In this document: piece after piece, positions 55,986 to 64,000 of the stretch
How positions within the stretch are numbered: position 1 is the stretch's first letter
How the letters are laid out: every line of letters begins with the position of its first letter
NCBI RefSeq assembly: GCF_018612875.1
Contig: NZ_JAGGRI010000002.1
Location: 62,001 to 126,000 of the forward strand
DNA: 64,000 bases
Direction: 5' to 3'
Source: Lysobacter sp. ISL-50
Lineage (GTDB): Bacteria > Pseudomonadota > Gammaproteobacteria > Xanthomonadales > Xanthomonadaceae
Notes under the pieces: model-generated
Database searches by the model: none
What the model was told of the DNA's origin: nothing
The model's input: the letters and a program-made list of their open reading frames with translations, nothing else
Translations under genes and position numbers: made by a program

Positions 55986-56113
55986 CGTGCGCATTGGTTG
56001 AGCCTTGAGATCGCAGCAGGGACGCGCGAGGCGTGCCGCTGGCTGCCCCAGACGAAATCTTGTCTGCGCGTATTGACGCGCCTGAGCACTGGGCCTTACA
56101 TTGCCAATTCAAT

Positions 56114-56136
56114 GAAATGATATATCGTTACATTTC
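56114..56136. promoter_or_regulatory. Zur box
   Basis: A 23-bp palindrome with perfect arms GAAATG and CATTTC around 11 bp, and TATA at positions 8-11. It matches the gammaproteobacterial Zur consensus (GAAATG-TTATA-n-TATAA-CATTTC) in both complete arms and most of the first inner half. It lies 26 bp before the TonB receptor start, in the only AT-rich stretch there, where the -10 element must be. Zinc-bound Zur would repress the whole operon. Confidence 0.72.
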
Positions 56137-56162
56137 TCATTTCGGCCGGGGCAAGGATCACA

Positions 56163-58532
56163 GTGGACACACGCAGTCAGGGGCGCCGCGCACGCGCGGC
56201 CGGAACGGAAGCCAGTCAGGACGCGCGGTCGTGCGACGGCGCGTTGCTTCACGGGCGCGAGTCGTCCGGGCGGAATCGGCCCGATCGCGGCTCGCCCTGC
56301 GCGGCTCCCTCCGGCAGCCGGCACGGCCTCGCTCTGAGCCGCCTCGGCATGGCCCTGCTGATCGCGCTGTGCGCGGCACCGGCCGCCCACGCCCAACAAA
56401 CTTCCGCCGAAAGCGCCGGCGGCGCGCCCCTGCCCAAGCTGCTCGACAAGGTCATCGTCGAAGGCGTGGCAACCCAGGAAGCGCCGCTGGACCGGCCCAA
56501 CGCCACCGCCTCGCGCCTGGGCCTGAGCCCGCGCGAGACCCCGGCGGCGATCGAGGTGCTGAGCCAGGACCAGATCCAGGCGCGCGGCCTGCGCGGCAGC
56601 GTCGAGGCGCTCAACGCCGCGCCCGGCGTCCTCGCCGGGCAACTGCCGTCCTCGCCGGGCATGACCTCGATGCGCGGCTTCACCGGCGGCGCCATCGCGC
56701 TGCTCTACGACGGCGTGCGCCAGACCGCCGCGCCCTTGATCACGCGCGACTTCGACAGCTGGAGCTTCGAGCGCATCGAAGTGCTCAAGGGCCCGGCCTC
56801 GGTGCTGTACGGCGAAGGCGCGCTGGCCGGCGCGATCAATCTGGTGCCCAAGCGGCCGAACTTCGACGGCCGCGCCTTCGAAGCCCTGGCCGGCTGGGGC
56901 AGCTTCGGCAGCCAGCGCTACGCGATCGACGCCAACGTGCCGCTCAGCGACGACTTCGCCGTGCGCGCGGTGGTCAGCCGGCGCAGCAGCGACGGTTACG
57001 TGGACGGCACCGGCAGCGATTCGACCTCGGCCACGCTGGCCGCGCGCTGGCGTCCCAGCGATACCCTGGACGTCGATATCGCCCTGGATCATTACCAGGA
57101 CGACTACGACACCGCGTATTGGGGCACGCCGCTCATCCCGGCATCGATCGCGCGCGATCCCAGCGATCTGGTGCGCACCGGCAACGGCCTGGTGCTCGAC
57201 CGCGCCATCGCCCGGCGCAACTACAACGTCGACAACGGCGTGCAGGATTCGCACAGCGACTGGCTGCGCACACGGGTCAACTGGCAGATCAGCGACGGGC
57301 TGCGTTTCGGCAACGAGTTCAGTTACTACGACGCGCATCGACGTTGGTTGAATTCGGAAACGTATACCTACAACGCGCGCAGCGGGCTGCTCGATCGCGG
57401 CACTACGCGGATCGAGCACGATCATCAGTTCTGGGTCGAGCGGGCTACGTTATTTTCGGACAGTTCCATCGGGGCTCGGCGTAACCGGGCTTCGGTTGGC
57501 GTGGAAATCAGCGACGGCGATTTCATGGTGATGCGCCGCTTCGGCACGACCACGCCGGTCGATCCGTTCGCGCCGCGCCGCGGCAGCGTGTCCTTCGCCG
57601 ATACCGCGCTGAACTTTCCCGGCGCCGGCAACCGCGTGGATTTCGATTCGAACACGCGAGTGGTGTCGGTGTTCGCCGAAGACGCGCTCAACCTGACCCC
57701 GCGCTGGCTGCTGCTGGCGGGCCTGCGCTACGACCGCATCGAGCTTGAGCGCAGCATCCGCGACTACAACACCGGCAGCCGGACCCGGTTCGAACGCAGC
57801 TATGAGCCGCTGTCGTGGCGCCTGGGCACGGTGTTCGACCTGGCGCAGAAAACCCAGTTGTACGCGCAGTACAGCGTCGCCGTCGCGCCGGTCGGCAGCC
57901 TGCCGCTGCTGTCGCTGGCGAACTCGCGCTTCGAACTGACCCGCGGCCACGCGGCCGATGCCGGCATCAAGAGCAGTGTGTGGAACGACCGCATCGATCT
58001 GAGCGCCAGCGCCTACTGGATCGAGCAGGACGACATCGTCACCCGCGATCCGCGCAACGCCAATCTGTCGATCCAGGGCGGCACGCAGTCCTCGCGCGGC
58101 ATCGAGTTGTCCGCCTCGGCCGCGCTGACCCGCGCGCTGCGCCTGGACGCGAGCGTGGCCGCGCTGGACGCGCGCTTCGACCGTCTGCGCGAAGCCGGCG
58201 GCGTCGACCGCGCCGGCAACGTACCGCCGAACGTGCCCGAGCGCATCGCCAACCTCTACGCCAGTTATCGCTTCGACCCGGTGCCGGTCACCGTCGGCGC
58301 CGGCGCGCGCTACGTCGGCGCGTACTACACCAACAACGCCAACAGCATCCGCGTGGACAGCCACACGGTGTGGGACGCGTCGATCGCCTACCGGCTGCCG
58401 TTCGGCGAGATCGCGTTGTACGGACGCAACCTGGGCGATGCGTTCTACGCCGACTGGTCCGGCGGCGCGGCCGATCAACTGGTGATCGGCGCGCCGCGCA
58501 GCGTCGAGCTGACTTTCAAGGTGAACCTATGA
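56163..58532 (+). CDS. TonB-dependent receptor, first gene of the Zur-box operon
   Basis: A 789-residue outer membrane receptor. The start is GTG with AAGGA five bases upstream; the signal-peptide-like segment (MALLIALCAAPAAHA) only appears at about 63-77, so there is a long Arg/Ser-rich lead. The plug follows (IEVLSQDQIQARGLRGSVEALNAAPGV, MRGFTGGAIALLYDGVRQ, VLKGPASVLYGEGALAGAINLVPKRP), then a barrel ending VELTFKVNL. It resembles siderophore/metallophore receptors. The stop overlaps the ABC ATPase start (ATGA). Probable role: uptake of a zinc complex under zinc starvation. Confidence 0.85.
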   Translation: MDTRSQGRRARAAGTEASQDARSCDGALLHGRESSGRNRPDRGSPCAAPSGSRHGLALSRLGMALLIALCAAPAAHAQQTSAESAGGAPLPKLLDKVIVEGVATQEAPLDRPNATASRLGLSPRETPAAIEVLSQDQIQARGLRGSVEALNAAPGVLAGQLPSSPGMTSMRGFTGGAIALLYDGVRQTAAPLITRDFDSWSFERIEVLKGPASVLYGEGALAGAINLVPKRPNFDGRAFEALAGWGSFGSQRYAIDANVPLSDDFAVRAVVSRRSSDGYVDGTGSDSTSATLAARWRPSDTLDVDIALDHYQDDYDTAYWGTPLIPASIARDPSDLVRTGNGLVLDRAIARRNYNVDNGVQDSHSDWLRTRVNWQISDGLRFGNEFSYYDAHRRWLNSETYTYNARSGLLDRGTTRIEHDHQFWVERATLFSDSSIGARRNRASVGVEISDGDFMVMRRFGTTTPVDPFAPRRGSVSFADTALNFPGAGNRVDFDSNTRVVSVFAEDALNLTPRWLLLAGLRYDRIELERSIRDYNTGSRTRFERSYEPLSWRLGTVFDLAQKTQLYAQYSVAVAPVGSLPLLSLANSRFELTRGHAADAGIKSSVWNDRIDLSASAYWIEQDDIVTRDPRNANLSIQGGTQSSRGIELSASAALTRALRLDASVAALDARFDRLREAGGVDRAGNVPPNVPERIANLYASYRFDPVPVTVGAGARYVGAYYTNNANSIRVDSHTVWDASIAYRLPFGEIALYGRNLGDAFYADWSGGAADQLVIGAPRSVELTFKVNL

Positions 58533-59275
58533 GCTTGTTGCAGACCCGCACCGACGCGCTGCGCCTGGACGCCGTGCGCAAGGATTTCGGCGACCGCCAT
58601 GCGCTGGACGAACTGTCGATCGCGATCGCGCCCGGCGAGGTCTACGCGTTGCTCGGCCCGAACGGCGCCGGCAAGACCACGACCTTGAACCTGATCCTGG
58701 GATTCCTGCAGCCCGAGGCCGGCCGCATCGAAGTCGCCGGGATCGACGTGGGCCGCGATCCCCTGGCCGCGCGCGCCAAGATCGCCTATCTGCCGGAAAC
58801 GGTGATGCTGCATCCCAGCCTGAGCGCGATCGAGAACCTCACCTACTTCGCCTTGCTCGGCGGGCGCCGGATCGACGCGGCGCAGGCGCGCGATCTGCTC
58901 GCCGAGGCCGGCTTGCAGCCCGAAGCGCATGCGCGCCGCGCCGCCGGCTTCTCCAAGGGCATGCGGCAGAAAGTCGGGCTGGCGATCGCGCTGGCCAAGA
59001 ACGCGCAACTGCTGCTGCTCGACGAACCGACCTCGGGGCTGGATGCCAGCGCGGCCAACGATCTCTCGCAAGGCGTGCGCGCCGCCGCCCAGCGCGGCAT
59101 CGCGGTGTTGATGGCGACGCACGATCTGTACCGGGTCAAGGACGTGGCCCATCGCCTCGGCATTCTGCGCGCGGGGCGATTGCTCGCGCAGCGCCGCACC
59201 GCGGAACTGTCCGCGGCGCAGATCGAGGCGCTGTATCTGGAATTGCTCGCCAGCCAAGACACGGCCGCGGCATGA
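58529..59275 (+). CDS. ABC transporter ATP-binding protein
   Basis: A 248-residue ABC ATPase: Walker A GPNGAGKTT near 44-52, Q-loop region AYLPETVMLHPSLSAIENL, signature variant FSKGMRQKVGLA near 140, Walker B LLLLDEPTSGLD and switch His in MATHDLYRV. It groups with NosF-type ATPases that serve ABC-2 permeases. It overlaps both neighbours by ATGA, so it is translationally coupled to the receptor and to the first permease. Confidence 0.92.
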   Translation: MSLLQTRTDALRLDAVRKDFGDRHALDELSIAIAPGEVYALLGPNGAGKTTTLNLILGFLQPEAGRIEVAGIDVGRDPLAARAKIAYLPETVMLHPSLSAIENLTYFALLGGRRIDAAQARDLLAEAGLQPEAHARRAAGFSKGMRQKVGLAIALAKNAQLLLLDEPTSGLDASAANDLSQGVRAAAQRGIAVLMATHDLYRVKDVAHRLGILRAGRLLAQRRTAELSAAQIEALYLELLASQDTAAA

Positions 59276-60675
59276 GCGCATCGCTGACCGGTTTCGAATG
59301 GACCTTGCTGCGCCGCGACCGCCGCGCGTGGTGGGCGCTGCTGTGCCTGGGCGCGCTGGTGTTGATCGCCTTCGCGGTGGATCTGGCGACGATCGTCGAT
59401 GCCAACGCGGCCAAGGCCGACATCGCCCGCGCCGAACGCGCGCGCTGGCTGGGGCAGGGCGAGAAAGATCCGCATTCGGCCGCGCACTACAGCATTTTCG
59501 CCTTCAAGCCGACTTCGCCGCTGGCGGCGCTGGACCTGGGCGTGGAGCCCTTCGTCGGCCAGACCGTGTGGCTGGAAGCGCACGTGCAGAACGACATGCT
59601 GTACCGGCCGCAGGGCGAGGCTTCGGCGCTGCAGCGCGCCGGCTTGAGCAGCCCGGCCAGTGTGTTGATCGGCTTCGCGCCGCTGGTGGCGTTCCTGCTG
59701 GCGTTCACCGCGGTGGCGATGGACCGCGAACGCGGCACCTTGCGATTGGCTTTGGGCGCGGCGCTGCGACCGCGCGCGATCGTCGCCAGCAAGGCGGCCG
59801 CGATCTGGATGGCCTTGGTCTGGGTGTTGGTGGTGCCGGTGACCGCGTGTGCTGCGATCGCCACCGCCGCGCTCGGCGCGCTGGACGCGACCGCGGCCTT
59901 GCGCCTGGTGCTGTGGGCGGCGGCGATGGCGGTGTACCTGGGCGTGCTGACCGCGCTCGGCCTGGCCGTATCGATGCTCGCCGGCAGCGTGCGCGGCGCG
60001 CTGGCGGTTTTGTTCGGCCTGTGGATCGCCTTCGGCCTGGCGCTGCCGCGCTGGGCCAACAGCGCGGTGGAAAGCGCGCAGCCGCTGCCGTCCACGCAGA
60101 CGGTCAAGCAGCAGTTGCTGGACGAGGCGCCGTCGTACTGGACCGCCGAGGACGCGAAGAAACATCAGGCCGTGCTGCTGGCCAAATACGGCGCCAAGGA
60201 CCCGGCGGATCTGCGCGTGGACCTGCGTGGCGCCGAGCTGGATCTGAGCGAACGCCATTCGCACGAAGTGTTCGACCGCGTGCTCGGTGGTTTCTACGAC
60301 CGCGTCGTCGCGCAGGATCGCGCCTACGCCATGCTCGGCTGGTTGTCGCCGACCGCGGCCATGCAGAGCCTGTCGCCGATGCTGGCCGGCAGCGACTTCG
60401 TCCATCACCGCCGCTTCATCGACGGCGCCGAGCGCTACCGGCGCGCGCTGGTCAATCGCATGAATCAGGACGTGATGGCGCACCCGACCGGCGAGGGCGG
60501 CGCCAAGCACACCAACGATGCGTCGCTGTGGGCGCAGATTCCCGAATTCCACCACCCCGCGCCGTCGCTGAGCGCGAACTGGCGCCACGCCGCGCCGGCC
60601 GCGGCCGCGCTGCTGGCCTGGTCGCTGGCGGCCCTGGCCTTGCTGGCGTTGGCGGCACGGAGGCTGCGTCCATGA
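59272..60675 (+). CDS. ABC-2/DUF3526-type permease 1
   Basis: A 467-residue membrane protein: one N-terminal helix (about 17-38), a large periplasmic loop, then helices at about 125-290 and a last one at the C-terminus (PAAAALLAWSLAALALLALAA). The plan and the MDRERGTLRLALGAALRPR segment fit DUF3526 ABC permeases. The loop region of about 150 residues after the fifth helix is unusual for simple exporters. ATGA overlap with the next permease. Confidence 0.82.
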   Translation: MSASLTGFEWTLLRRDRRAWWALLCLGALVLIAFAVDLATIVDANAAKADIARAERARWLGQGEKDPHSAAHYSIFAFKPTSPLAALDLGVEPFVGQTVWLEAHVQNDMLYRPQGEASALQRAGLSSPASVLIGFAPLVAFLLAFTAVAMDRERGTLRLALGAALRPRAIVASKAAAIWMALVWVLVVPVTACAAIATAALGALDATAALRLVLWAAAMAVYLGVLTALGLAVSMLAGSVRGALAVLFGLWIAFGLALPRWANSAVESAQPLPSTQTVKQQLLDEAPSYWTAEDAKKHQAVLLAKYGAKDPADLRVDLRGAELDLSERHSHEVFDRVLGGFYDRVVAQDRAYAMLGWLSPTAAMQSLSPMLAGSDFVHHRRFIDGAERYRRALVNRMNQDVMAHPTGEGGAKHTNDASLWAQIPEFHHPAPSLSANWRHAAPAAAALLAWSLAALALLALAARRLRP

Positions 60676-62198
60676 GCGCGATCGCATTGGAAACACCGCA
60701 AATCGCCGCGCCCGCGCGCGTCGGCTTCGCCACCCTGCTGGCCTGGGAGCTGCGTCACGTCGGCCGCAGCCGGCTGTTGTGGACGGTGATCGGCCTGCTG
60801 GCCGCGGCGATGCTGTGGGGCGCGCACAGCGGCGCGGCGCTGCATCGCGCCCAGGACGCGGCGATCGAACGCAGCCGCGCCAGCGAGGCGCAGTGGATGC
60901 GGCAGATCCGCGAACGCGCGCAGCGCTACGCCGAGCCGGCGCCGGCTTCGGTGCCGTACTGGCAGGACCCGACCGACATCGCCGGCTTCAGTCGCTATTT
61001 TCTGCGCGCGCACAGCTACAAGCCGAACCTGCCGCTGTCGCCGCTGGCGGTGGGCGGCAGCGACCTGATGCCGAGTCGTCTGCCGGTGAAACTGGAAACG
61101 CCGTTCGGCGTCGAGCCGGCCTACGATTTCGAGAATCCGCGCGGGCTCGGCCTGGGCCGGTTCGACCTGGGTTTCGTGCTGGTGTATCTGCTGCCGATCG
61201 CGGTGATCGTGTTGATCGGCCTGCTGTCCACCTTCGAACGCGATCACGGCATGTTGCGCCTGATCGCCGCGCAGCGGGTCGGCCCGCGCGCGTGGCTGGG
61301 CGCGCGCGTGGCGGCGATCACCGCCTGGCTGATGCCGGCGACGCTGGCGCTGCTGTGCCTGTCGTTGTCGATCGCCGGCGCGAATCTGTCCGCGGCGATA
61401 CCCGAACTGTTCGCGTCGGCGGCTCTGGTGGTGGCCTACCTGTCGTTCTGGGCCGCGCTGGGCTTCGTCGTGGTGTCCGCGTGGCCCGGCGCCGCCGGCG
61501 CGATCAGTCTGATGAGCGCGTTGTGGGCCTTGCTCGCGATCGGCCTGCCCTTGCTCGGCAGCGCGCTGTCGCAGCGGGTCGGCGATGCGCCCACGTCGGT
61601 GGCCTACGTCGACGCGCAGCGCCGCACCAACGACGCCATCGCCGCCGAGCGCGATGCGATCGTCGGCGCGATGTTCCGCGCCCGCGCCGATCTGGCGCCG
61701 GCCATCGGCAAGGTCGCCAGCATCGACTACGCCACCCGCATGAGTTTCCTCGCGCCGGAAACCGAGCGGCGACTGCAACCCTTGCAGCGTCGCCAGGAGC
61801 GCGCGCGCGATCTGCGCGAAACGGTATCGGAGTGGGCCGGCTATCTGTCGCCGCCGCTGGGCATGGAGCAGGCGCTGTCGCTGCTGGCCGGCACCGACGC
61901 GCCGCGCCAGCGCCGATTCGAGCATCAGACCCGGGTCTATCAGCTGCGTTTGCGCGAATGGTTCTATCCACGCATCCAGCGCCAGATCGCCGCGCCGACA
62001 CCGCGGCCGGTCGCGAACAGCTACGGGCGGATGAACTTCGACGAATACGCGGACATCCCCGTGTACACCGGCGCCGAGCTGCCGCCGCTGGCGCGCGCGG
62101 CCGGTGTCGCGCCGATGACGGCATGGCTGTTGCTGTTGGCCGCCGGCTTGTGCGCGTTCGCGCTGCACCGCCTGCGCCGCTGGCCGACGGAGCTTTGA
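60672..62198 (+). CDS. ABC-2/DUF3526-type permease 2
   Basis: A 508-residue paralog of the preceding permease with the same plan: N-terminal helix (LLWTVIGLLAAAMLWGAHSG), periplasmic loop with FSRYFLRAHSYKPNLPLSPLAVGG, helix cluster beginning VLVYLLPIAVIVLIGLLSTFERDHGMLRLIAAQRVG, a long charged loop, and a C-terminal helix (MTAWLLLLAAGLCAFALHRL). The two permeases probably form a heterodimer with the ATPase. The stop is 3 bp before the next gene. Confidence 0.82.
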   Translation: MSAIALETPQIAAPARVGFATLLAWELRHVGRSRLLWTVIGLLAAAMLWGAHSGAALHRAQDAAIERSRASEAQWMRQIRERAQRYAEPAPASVPYWQDPTDIAGFSRYFLRAHSYKPNLPLSPLAVGGSDLMPSRLPVKLETPFGVEPAYDFENPRGLGLGRFDLGFVLVYLLPIAVIVLIGLLSTFERDHGMLRLIAAQRVGPRAWLGARVAAITAWLMPATLALLCLSLSIAGANLSAAIPELFASAALVVAYLSFWAALGFVVVSAWPGAAGAISLMSALWALLAIGLPLLGSALSQRVGDAPTSVAYVDAQRRTNDAIAAERDAIVGAMFRARADLAPAIGKVASIDYATRMSFLAPETERRLQPLQRRQERARDLRETVSEWAGYLSPPLGMEQALSLLAGTDAPRQRRFEHQTRVYQLRLREWFYPRIQRQIAAPTPRPVANSYGRMNFDEYADIPVYTGAELPPLARAAGVAPMTAWLLLLAAGLCAFALHRLRRWPTEL

Positions 62199-62201
62199 GC
62201 G

Positions 62202-64000
62202 ATGAAACGCGCGAGCCTCGCATGGACCCTGGGCTGCGGCCTGGCCGCCTTCGCCGCCGCCGCCGATGCGCAGCGCGCCGGCGACAACGCCGTGACCGCG
62301 GCCGAGGACGCGTTCGGCGCGACCTTGGGCAATGAAACCATCGGCCTGTACAGCAGCAAGCAAGTACGCGGCTTCTCGCCGGTGGACGCCGGCAATGTGC
62401 GCATGGACGGCATCTACTTCGATCGCCAGGGCACGGTGCCGCCGGCCCTGGTCGAAGGCTCGACCATCCGCGTCGGCCTGTCGGCGCTGAATTATCCGTT
62501 CCCGGCGCCGACCGGCATCGTCGATTACCGCCTGAAGAAAGCCGGCGACGAGCGCGTGCTGAGCCTGCTCGGCGCGATCAACGCCTACGGCGCGCCGGCC
62601 TTGGAGTTCGACGCCAAGCTGCCGATCGTGGACGGCCGCTTCGGCATCGCCGCCAACATCGCCGTGGCGCGCGAGGAGTATTACGACGGCGCCGACGCGC
62701 GCTATGTCCGCGCCGGATTCGTGCCGCGCTGGCGGCCGACGGAGAACATCGAGATCCTGCCGTTCTGGAGCATCTCGCGCGGCCGCGACGAAGAAGTCGC
62801 GCCGACCATCATCACCGCCGGGCCGTACCGGCCGCCCCGAATCCAGCGTCGCCGTCATTTCGGCCAGGCGTGGTCGGACAACGAATACGACAGCCGCAAC
62901 TACGGCGTGCTCGGCAAGGCCCGGCTGGGCGGCGACTGGGCGCTGGCCGGCGGCGTGTTCCGTTCGATCAACAACCAGCCCAGCGGTTTCGCCGAGTTGT
63001 TCACCGACACCCGCGCGGACGGCATGACGCGGGAGAAAGTCATCGCCGATCCGCGCCAGCGCTACGCCTCCACCAGCGGCGAGCTGCGGCTGAGCCGCAG
63101 CTTCCGCGAAGGCCCGCGCCTGCATGTGCTGCAAGTGGCCGTGCGCGGACGCGGGCTGGACAGCGAGTACGGCGGTTCGGCGGCGGCGATCGATTACGGC
63201 TGGCGGCCTCTGGGCGAACCGCGGCCGGTGCCGCCGCCGTCGTCGTTCGACTTCGGCCCGCGCACCCGCGATCACGTCGAGCAATGGACCGGCGGCCTGG
63301 CGTATGAAGGGCGCTGGCGCGATGTCGGCGAGCTGAGCCTGGGCATCCAGCGCAGCCGCTATCGCAAGCACGTGGACCAACCGGGCCTGGCGCGCACGAG
63401 CAGTCGCGACGATCCGTGGCTGCCCAACGCCACCGCCTCGGTGTATCTGAGCAAGACGCTGGCGCTGTACGCCGGCCACACCCGCGGGCTGGAGGAAACC
63501 GGGATCGCGCCGGACGATGCCGCCAACCGCAATCAGGCGCTGCCGGCGATCCGCACCCGCCAGACCGATGCCGGCGTGCGCTGGTCGCTGAGCCAGGACC
63601 TGAAACTGGTCGCCGGCGCTTTCGACGTGCGCAAGCCGTACTTCACCACCGACGAGCGCAACGTCTATGGCGCGATCGGCGAAGTGCGCCATCGCGGCGT
63701 CGAACTGAGCCTGAGCGGCAAGCCGGCCGAGCACTGGAGCCTGGTCGCCGGCGCGGTGCTGATGCATCCGCGGGTCAGCGGCGAAGCGGTGCAGCTGGGC
63801 CGCGTCGGCGATCGCCCGATCGGCCAGACCGAGCGCGTATTGCGCAGCGATGTCGAATACCGGCCGCCGCTGCTGCCGGGCTGGTCGTTCGATGTGTCGA
63901 TGAGCCATTACGGCGAACGCGTCGCCTCGCGCGACGGCTTCAACCGCGTTCCGGCCTACACGCTGGTGGATGTCGGCGCGCGCTATCGCTTCAAGCTCGG
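62202..64000 (+). CDS. TonB-dependent receptor, second in the operon (3' end outside window)
   Basis: The frame stays open to the window edge, about 600 codons. The signal peptide ends near residue 23 (LGCGLAAFAAAADA). The plug-like start LGNETIGLYSSKQVRGFSPVDAGNVRMDGIYFDRQG and later barrel strands with alternating aromatic and charged residues identify a TonB-type receptor. It differs greatly in sequence from the first receptor in this operon. Together the five genes form a complete outer-to-inner membrane route. Confidence 0.8.
   Translation, partial: MKRASLAWTLGCGLAAFAAAADAQRAGDNAVTAAEDAFGATLGNETIGLYSSKQVRGFSPVDAGNVRMDGIYFDRQGTVPPALVEGSTIRVGLSALNYPFPAPTGIVDYRLKKAGDERVLSLLGAINAYGAPALEFDAKLPIVDGRFGIAANIAVAREEYYDGADARYVRAGFVPRWRPTENIEILPFWSISRGRDEEVAPTIITAGPYRPPRIQRRRHFGQAWSDNEYDSRNYGVLGKARLGGDWALAGGVFRSINNQPSGFAELFTDTRADGMTREKVIADPRQRYASTSGELRLSRSFREGPRLHVLQVAVRGRGLDSEYGGSAAAIDYGWRPLGEPRPVPPPSSFDFGPRTRDHVEQWTGGLAYEGRWRDVGELSLGIQRSRYRKHVDQPGLARTSSRDDPWLPNATASVYLSKTLALYAGHTRGLEETGIAPDDAANRNQALPAIRTRQTDAGVRWSLSQDLKLVAGAFDVRKPYFTTDERNVYGAIGEVRHRGVELSLSGKPAEHWSLVAGAVLMHPRVSGEAVQLGRVGDRPIGQTERVLRSDVEYRPPLLPGWSFDVSMSHYGERVASRDGFNRVPAYTLVDVGARYRFKL

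Follow-up and report, generated by a model that had tools for sequence, protein, structure and literature searches.

A run of ten genes in Lysobacter sp. ISL-50, which begins near the end of the analysed stretch of DNA (64,000 nucleotides, hereafter the window) and continues beyond it, probably constitutes a Zur-controlled zincophore operon (rough probability 0.7). Its genes would provide for the synthesis of a small zinc carrier, its export by an MFS protein and its recapture by TonB receptors, with a NosY-like ABC-2 transporter working on the uptake side. The observations that carry this reading are the gene content and order, their conservation, operator-like sites, the scarcity of ZnuA beside the system and a histidine cluster in the sequence of one permease. 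Zur control of a TonB receptor together with an ABC-2 transporter is already established, as described for Caulobacter (PMC4176598); what is new is the second half of the operon, which connects it with a metallophore pathway, the breadth of the system's distribution, and the statistical association between the permeases and zinc.

Gene content and operator

Five genes of the run, all on the forward strand, lie within the window. The first encodes a siderophore-type TonB-dependent receptor (TBDR1, 56349–58532) with Pfam TonB barrel and Plug domains, scoring 254.7 bits against TIGR01783 (cut-off 223.5). It is followed by a NosF-like ABC transporter ATPase (58529–59275; Pfam ABC_tran, with drrA as the best NCBIfam match, under its cut-off), permease 1 (59272–60675; Pfam ABC2_membrane_2 and DUF3526, with a NosY-like fold), permease 2 (60672–62198; Pfam DUF3526, without the conserved histidine cluster of permease 1) and a divergent TonB receptor with a Pfam TonB barrel (TBDR2, from 62202), which the window's end cuts at 64000; in the genome, TBDR2 is whole, with 645 residues, and ends at position 126139 of contig C22. 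Three 4-base overlaps join the first four genes, and a 3-base gap leads to TBDR2. The first-pass annotation had read the identities and the 4-base or near-zero gaps in the same way, and the Pfam domains agree with it; its five-gene operon, however, is only half of the run. Permease 1 is 81% identical to its counterpart in Lysobacter sp. Root690, among the best 80 of at least 568 relatives. An antisense open frame of 1147 codons also crosses the permeases and TBDR2 (60465–63998, reverse strand); it is most likely a GC-rich shadow frame. Genes in all loci were called with a codon-based caller using the codon usage of known genes.

The window cuts the operon midway, and five more genes follow TBDR2 in the contig (locus L007, 9187–14681), separated by gaps of -1 to 65 bases. 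They encode a GHMP kinase (PF00288), a PLP enzyme nearest to SbnA, an ATP-grasp ligase with a LAL_C2 domain, a DUF364 protein lying between the ligase and the next gene and, last in the run, an MdtH-like MFS protein, after which a gene on the opposite strand, LysR-like by eye, ends the run. The PLP enzyme belongs to the same family as SbnA of staphyloferrin B, which is among its best solved matches, but its 130.2 bits against TIGR03945 do not reach the cut-off of 349.95. Its Lys36, kept in 11 of 11 aligned sequences, occupies what we take to be the site of the PLP lysine. The best solved match of the ATP-grasp ligase is the L-amino-acid ligase BL00235. Assembly enzymes, an exporter-type MFS gene and TonB receptors are thus all found in one gene run. 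Among the Lysobacter operon proteins, no nicotianamine synthase (PF03059) was detected, nor does the operon contain a periplasmic binding protein, including one of the ZnuA type (PF01297).

Upstream of TBDR1 lies a Zur-type operator, GAAATGATATATCGTTACATTTC (56114–56136, a palindrome assigned to neither strand), overlapped by promoter-like hexamers at 56101–56128. It differs at 4 of 22 positions, mainly in the centre, from the gamma-proteobacterial Zur consensus GAAATGTTATANTATAACATTTC, which served as the yardstick for scoring; this departure is shared by the window's genus, and clearer Zur boxes precede related operons outside it (L115, L066). A first degenerate motif gave no match in the window, and the full 23-base palindrome was needed to match the site. 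The box had been described earlier as standing directly before TBDR1. The palindrome is there, but its distance is greater than this wording implies. The open frame of TBDR1 runs from GTG 56163, whereas the gene caller picks ATG 56349, and in most of 15 genus relatives the homology starts at residues 38–93 of the long frame (at residue 23 in one). On both grounds, ATG 56349 is very likely the start, which places the box 213 bases upstream.

Scanning the own genome with a pattern tailored to the window's box gave three further sites with 2, 2 and 3 mismatches, one Zur-like site being at the C72 locus; the perfect match at the box itself follows from the tailoring. Among promoters of DUF3526 operons, 29 of 289 carry a site within five mismatches of the Zur consensus (three of the 29 being duplicates of other loci, L111, L112 and L117), against 12 of 841 other promoters from the same loci, and the mean over 60 permuted palindromes was 0.13, with a maximum of 2. 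Four duplicate loci (L111, L112, L113 and L117, taken as genomes G090, G273, G116 and G115, respectively) were excluded from the 137-locus and TonB-adjacency counts given below, and are still included in the promoter counts. Where a biosynthetic block adjoins the transporter (20 loci), an operator-like site is found at six or fewer mismatches in 16 and at seven in three, so that 19 of these 20 orthologous operons have a Zur-like palindrome; none was found at seven or fewer mismatches in the Massilia, Sphingosinicella and Polymorphobacter loci. As far as sequence matches can tell, Zur-type control of the operon is supported.

A NosY-like permease and the link to zinc

Permease 1 carries a conserved cluster of polar residues. 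In 61 proteins, H68 and H104 are invariant (61/61 each), H72 is kept in 60 and E102 in 58; these proteins came from genomes found by Pfam family rather than by motif, and 16 of them are close relatives from one genus. A further set of 54 rows, retrieved by a pattern that includes H68 and H72, was left out of this comparison. Permease 2 has no comparable conserved histidine. The AlphaFold2 model of permease 1 (mean pLDDT 90.5) has NosFY or NosDFY(L) chains as its eleven best Foldseek matches in the PDB, with probability 1.00, target TM scores of 0.46–0.67 and E-values between 3.2e-3 and 4.1e-2, so that none reaches 0.001. A profile comparison with the PDB likewise has NosY as its best match (7.1e-7). 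Thus, by profile and by the modelled fold, NosDFY appears to be the nearest solved relative. Permease 1 differs from the matched chains in its length (467 versus 246–275 residues), its DUF3526 part and the adjoining TonB receptors. The protein has two large non-membrane parts, and the histidine cluster is predicted to face the periplasm.

This likeness raises the question of whether the complex imports anything. NosDFY is a copper-delivery machine, not an importer. By analogy, the ABC-2 complex could be a periplasmic machine whose ATP-driven motion strips zinc from the metallophore or hands it over, with the zinc entering by another way. The structural matches, the two large non-membrane parts and the conserved histidines are all compatible with such a machine. 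Nevertheless, we consider it rather unlikely. No NosD-like family occurs among the operon proteins. Moreover, a delivery machine leaves the entry of zinc to another importer, and the own genome has neither a ZnuA (PF01297) nor a ZIP match, these being the importers sought.

The distribution of ZnuA is what an importer would predict. Across 397 Pseudomonadota genomes, ZnuA is missing in 18 of the 23 with DUF3526 versus 86 of the 374 without (odds ratio 12, p = 1e-7), and the association persists when the window's family is removed (odds ratio 10.7, p = 1.6e-6); in the family sample, ZnuA occurs in 1 of 57 DUF3526 genomes versus 29 of 240 others (p = 0.015), all of these statistics ignoring the relatedness of the genomes. 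ZnuA does occur in five of the 23 DUF3526 genomes, and most family genomes (211 of 297) contain neither DUF3526 nor ZnuA. The absence of both also holds for two genomes of the genus, G190 and G229, and the genus must therefore own another zinc route.

Several neighbourhoods place the permeases among zinc-related genes. In one locus (L105, 4411–17801, genome G478), the DUF3526 ABC genes and a TonB receptor are accompanied by AztC (above its cut-off), an AztD-like gene (just below), a FUR-family gene, two COG0523-type GTPases and, by eye, a PepSY-type gene, with Zur-like boxes before three units. In permease 1 of this locus, which does contain a binding protein, Glu replaces H72 and Gln replaces E102. 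Of the 137 loci, 11 have COG0523-type genes no more than six genes away, and at least four have a FUR-family gene nearby (three of these four were checked). Three runs, from the window's family and from Fibrisoma (Bacteroidota), combine a COG0523-type GTPase, a TonB receptor and DUF3526 permeases (L065, 6574–13489; L070; L134). The own genome has two FUR-family genes. The second, likely the zur gene, is on contig C71 (L008, 2979–8736), where a Zur-like site about 5 kb away is flanked by a divergent TonB receptor and a MerC gene. Taken together, a zinc role of the system is supported.

Distribution of the transporter and the enzymes

DUF3526 was found in 57 of 297 genomes of the family sample, including 16 of 18 from the genus. 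Neighbourhoods were fetched for 40 of these 57 and for 23 of 23 in the phylum sample, together with 80 loci of permease relatives, the best of at least 568. The co-occurrence with TonB receptors, which the first-pass annotation had singled out along with the Zur-like sites counted above (29 of 289 promoters), held: a receptor lies within three genes in 120 of the 137 loci, namely all 20 with the biosynthetic block, a Pyxidicoccus locus, and 99 of 116 in which the fetched stretch has no relative of the five downstream genes (other biosynthetic genes are possible there). Counted by gene, TonB receptors make up 163 of 644 near genes versus 3 of 244 far genes.

The block of GHMP kinase, PLP enzyme and ATP-grasp ligase is far more restricted, adjoining the transporter in 20 of 137 loci: those of the own genome, of all 15 other DUF3526 genomes of the genus, two from another genus (L066 and L082), a Rhodanobacteraceae MAG (L115) and Massilia frigida (L118). 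The edge of the locus cuts off the MFS gene in L052 and L054, and in L048 (6807–8299, genome G062) permease 2 is broken into two frames. In Massilia, the ATP-grasp ligase is fused to DUF364, a FUR-family gene lies within the cluster, the TBDR1 relative is divergent and a TBDR2 relative was not called. A separate search detected the PLP enzyme in all but two of the 20 genus genomes; these two, G190 and G229, also lack DUF3526 (G686 and G687, which are among the 18 with the enzyme, fall outside the DUF3526 test). In the phylum sample, it matched at E 1e-45 only in the own genome (1 of 397), so the block is rare there. In Sphingosinicella and Polymorphobacter, the stretch that was fetched contains the five transporter genes but not the enzymes, and their permeases fall inside the same permease-1 clade in a quick tree (SH-aLRT 99). 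Thus, the two halves of the operon can part.

Related enzyme sets exist in Actinobacteria. A tblastn search with the PLP enzyme returned nine plasmid records (eight Streptomyces, one Tsukamurella) and one with the ATP-grasp ligase five; nine neighbourhoods were examined from the 13 records in all. A FecCD-type importer accompanies DUF364, GHMP kinase and PLP enzyme in SGAir0924, melanogenes and Tsukamurella, and the PLP enzyme and ATP-grasp ligase in NBC_00648; FecCD was confirmed in all four, Peripla_BP_2 in one, and the kinase in Tsukamurella. In Streptomyces angustmyceticus and Rhodococcus, an ATP-grasp ligase, a cysteine-synthase-like enzyme and a dipeptide epimerase occur with a peptide-type importer (SBP_bac_5 and BPD_transp_1 in the former, BPD_transp_1 in the latter), with DUF364 annotated in the former and just below cut-off in the latter; this variant pathway, on plasmids (L198, L199), also has a methyltransferase. 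In clavifer, globosus and xanthii, no importer lies within the stretch. The nine neighbourhoods thus comprise four with FecCD-type and two with peptide-type importers, and an MFS protein is annotated in eight. Four of the nine promoters have a Zur box at three or fewer mismatches to the actinobacterial consensus and five do not, 300 permuted motifs giving a mean of 0.12 and a maximum that is also 4 of 9.

Another combination was found in Pyxidicoccus fallax (L166, 7025–17108), where the DUF3526 ABC genes and a TonB receptor stand with a nicotianamine synthase (E 2.8e-62), PhyH, an ATP-grasp ligase and an MFS gene, perhaps for another type of zincophore. Its permease lies in a distant clade of the quick tree, which suggests that the DUF3526 machine came together with metallophore-type enzymes on at least two occasions. 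In these clusters, the DUF3526 machine sits where others have FecCD-type or peptide-type importers.

This distribution bears on which protein exports the carrier. ABC-2 permeases usually act as exporters. The operon's ABC-2 complex might therefore export the metallophore, the MFS protein having another job and import proceeding through, for example, a FecCD-type cluster elsewhere in the genome. A candidate stands on contig C9 (L010, 2429–8372), with a TonB receptor, Peripla_BP_2, a FecCD permease and an ATPase, and a Zur-like site nearby. That site (three mismatches), however, precedes a MerC gene and not the FecCD genes, and the cluster itself is possibly a second zinc or siderophore route. 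An exporting ABC-2 complex is improbable, and we rank it low because most loci (116 of 137) keep the permeases without relatives of the five downstream genes in the fetched stretch, where other biosynthetic genes are possible, 99 of them with an adjoining TonB receptor; in addition, an MFS protein accompanies the enzymes in eight of the nine actinobacterial neighbourhoods. A role of the operon in handling a different metal (iron, copper, nickel or cobalt), under a Fur-type palindrome, is likewise improbable: TBDR1 does score as a siderophore receptor and the genus's own operator is off the canonical Zur box, but clearer boxes exist outside the genus, L105 has its zinc-related company, the best iron-box matches in the nine actinobacterial promoters have 8–10 mismatches in 18, and the Caulobacter counterpart is described as responding to zinc and Zur (PMC4176598).

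Proposed mechanism and relation to known systems

We infer co-transcription of the ten genes and each regulatory, chemical and transport step, including the substrate, the product and the direction of transport, from the evidence above. When zinc is plentiful, Zn-Zur would sit on the operator and all ten genes would be silent. When zinc is short, the GHMP kinase would phosphorylate a hydroxy amino acid, the SbnA-like enzyme would swap this phosphate for the amine of another amino acid to give an aminopolycarboxylate, and the ATP-grasp ligase would add an amino acid through amide formation, with DUF364 acting at some step. The product would then be exported by the MFS protein, and its zinc complex would re-enter through TBDR1 and TBDR2. 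Finally, the NosY-like ABC-2 heterodimer with its ATPase would take zinc, or the complex, at the histidine cluster of permease 1 and carry it across the inner membrane. The predicted enzyme set suggests a small aminopolycarboxylate peptide, and its kinase-plus-PLP logic, as we see it, recalls diaminobutyrate pathways.

We place the ABC-2 complex on the uptake side for two reasons: in most loci it accompanies receptors but not these enzymes, and the genomes that have it tend to be without ZnuA. YbtPQ and IrtAB are exporter-fold ABC importers of metallophores; the fold, therefore, does not fix the direction. Of the two options offered originally, zinc or metallophore import by an unusual permease class, or export of a carrier and its re-import, the genes beyond the window favour a mixture: a carrier is probably synthesised, secreted and taken back up, with the MFS protein as the evident exporter and the ABC-2 complex apparently part of the uptake machinery.

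Several facts count against the zincophore reading. Operators are missing from the Massilia, Sphingosinicella and Polymorphobacter loci, and five of the nine actinobacterial promoters are boxless. ZnuA is present in 5 of 23 DUF3526 genomes, the PLP enzyme is far under the SbnA cut-off (130 versus 350 bits), and a binding protein is lacking. In addition, G190 and G229 need another zinc route, and NosDFY serves copper delivery, not import.

Both Zur control with a zinc role and a likeness to a Caulobacter operon had been proposed from the window alone, and they are supported by the promoter counts and by that precedent. In Caulobacter crescentus, znuK and znuGHI (CC1517–CC1520) encode a TonB receptor and an ABC-2 transporter repressed by Zur (PMC4176598), and a review lists ZnuGHI as a zinc uptake system (PMC6103462). 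Common to both organisms are a TonB receptor adjoining an ABC-2 ATPase and two ABC-2 permeases, and a Zur operator, which in Lysobacter is a sequence match. The znuK and znuG sites given for Caulobacter are reverse complements, so receptor and transporter appear to diverge around one operator, and the table there lists no biosynthetic genes, in contrast to the single run, second receptor and biosynthetic block of Lysobacter (PMC4176598). PF12040 (DUF3526) was detected in the control genome of Caulobacter vibrioides, which does not figure among the ZnuA matches.

The staphylopine and pseudopaline clusters likewise keep biosynthesis, exporter and re-import genes together, with MFS exporters there too, and the survey of such opine-like zincophores describes two importer types, peptide-type and FecCD-type (PMC7438024). 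Unlike the clusters of that survey, the Lysobacter operon has no nicotianamine synthase and has the ABC-2/DUF3526 transporter in place of either importer (PMC7438024). The [S,S]-EDDS of Amycolatopsis japonicum is described as a Zur-regulated zincophore, with a structure that pointed to neither NRPS nor NIS. Our literature search found no paper on DUF3526, nor on this enzyme set with a metallophore; among papers on DUF364, judged by titles and the opening lines of abstracts, only a structure paper touches on metal chelation.

A broader proposal, which we hold tentatively and at somewhat less than even odds, treats the NosY-like ABC-2 (type V) complex, with a zinc site of its own and without a binding protein, as a widespread route by which zinc or zinc-metallophores cross the inner membrane into the cell. 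It would replace ZnuABC in many Pseudomonadota and perhaps Bacteroidota, and in Lysobacter it would be hard-wired to a zincophore pathway using neither an NRPS nor nicotianamine. If so, a third, structurally unrelated importer class would take zinc in, beyond the peptide-type and FecCD-type, and many bacteria without ZnuABC would turn out to be capable of high-affinity zinc uptake. The operon also suggests a possible purpose for the little-studied ZnuGHI of Caulobacter. For Lysobacter itself, it points to a zincophore pathway whose product could be sought in zinc-starved cells, and the ABC-2 complex may take the place of the zinc importer that bacteria commonly use.
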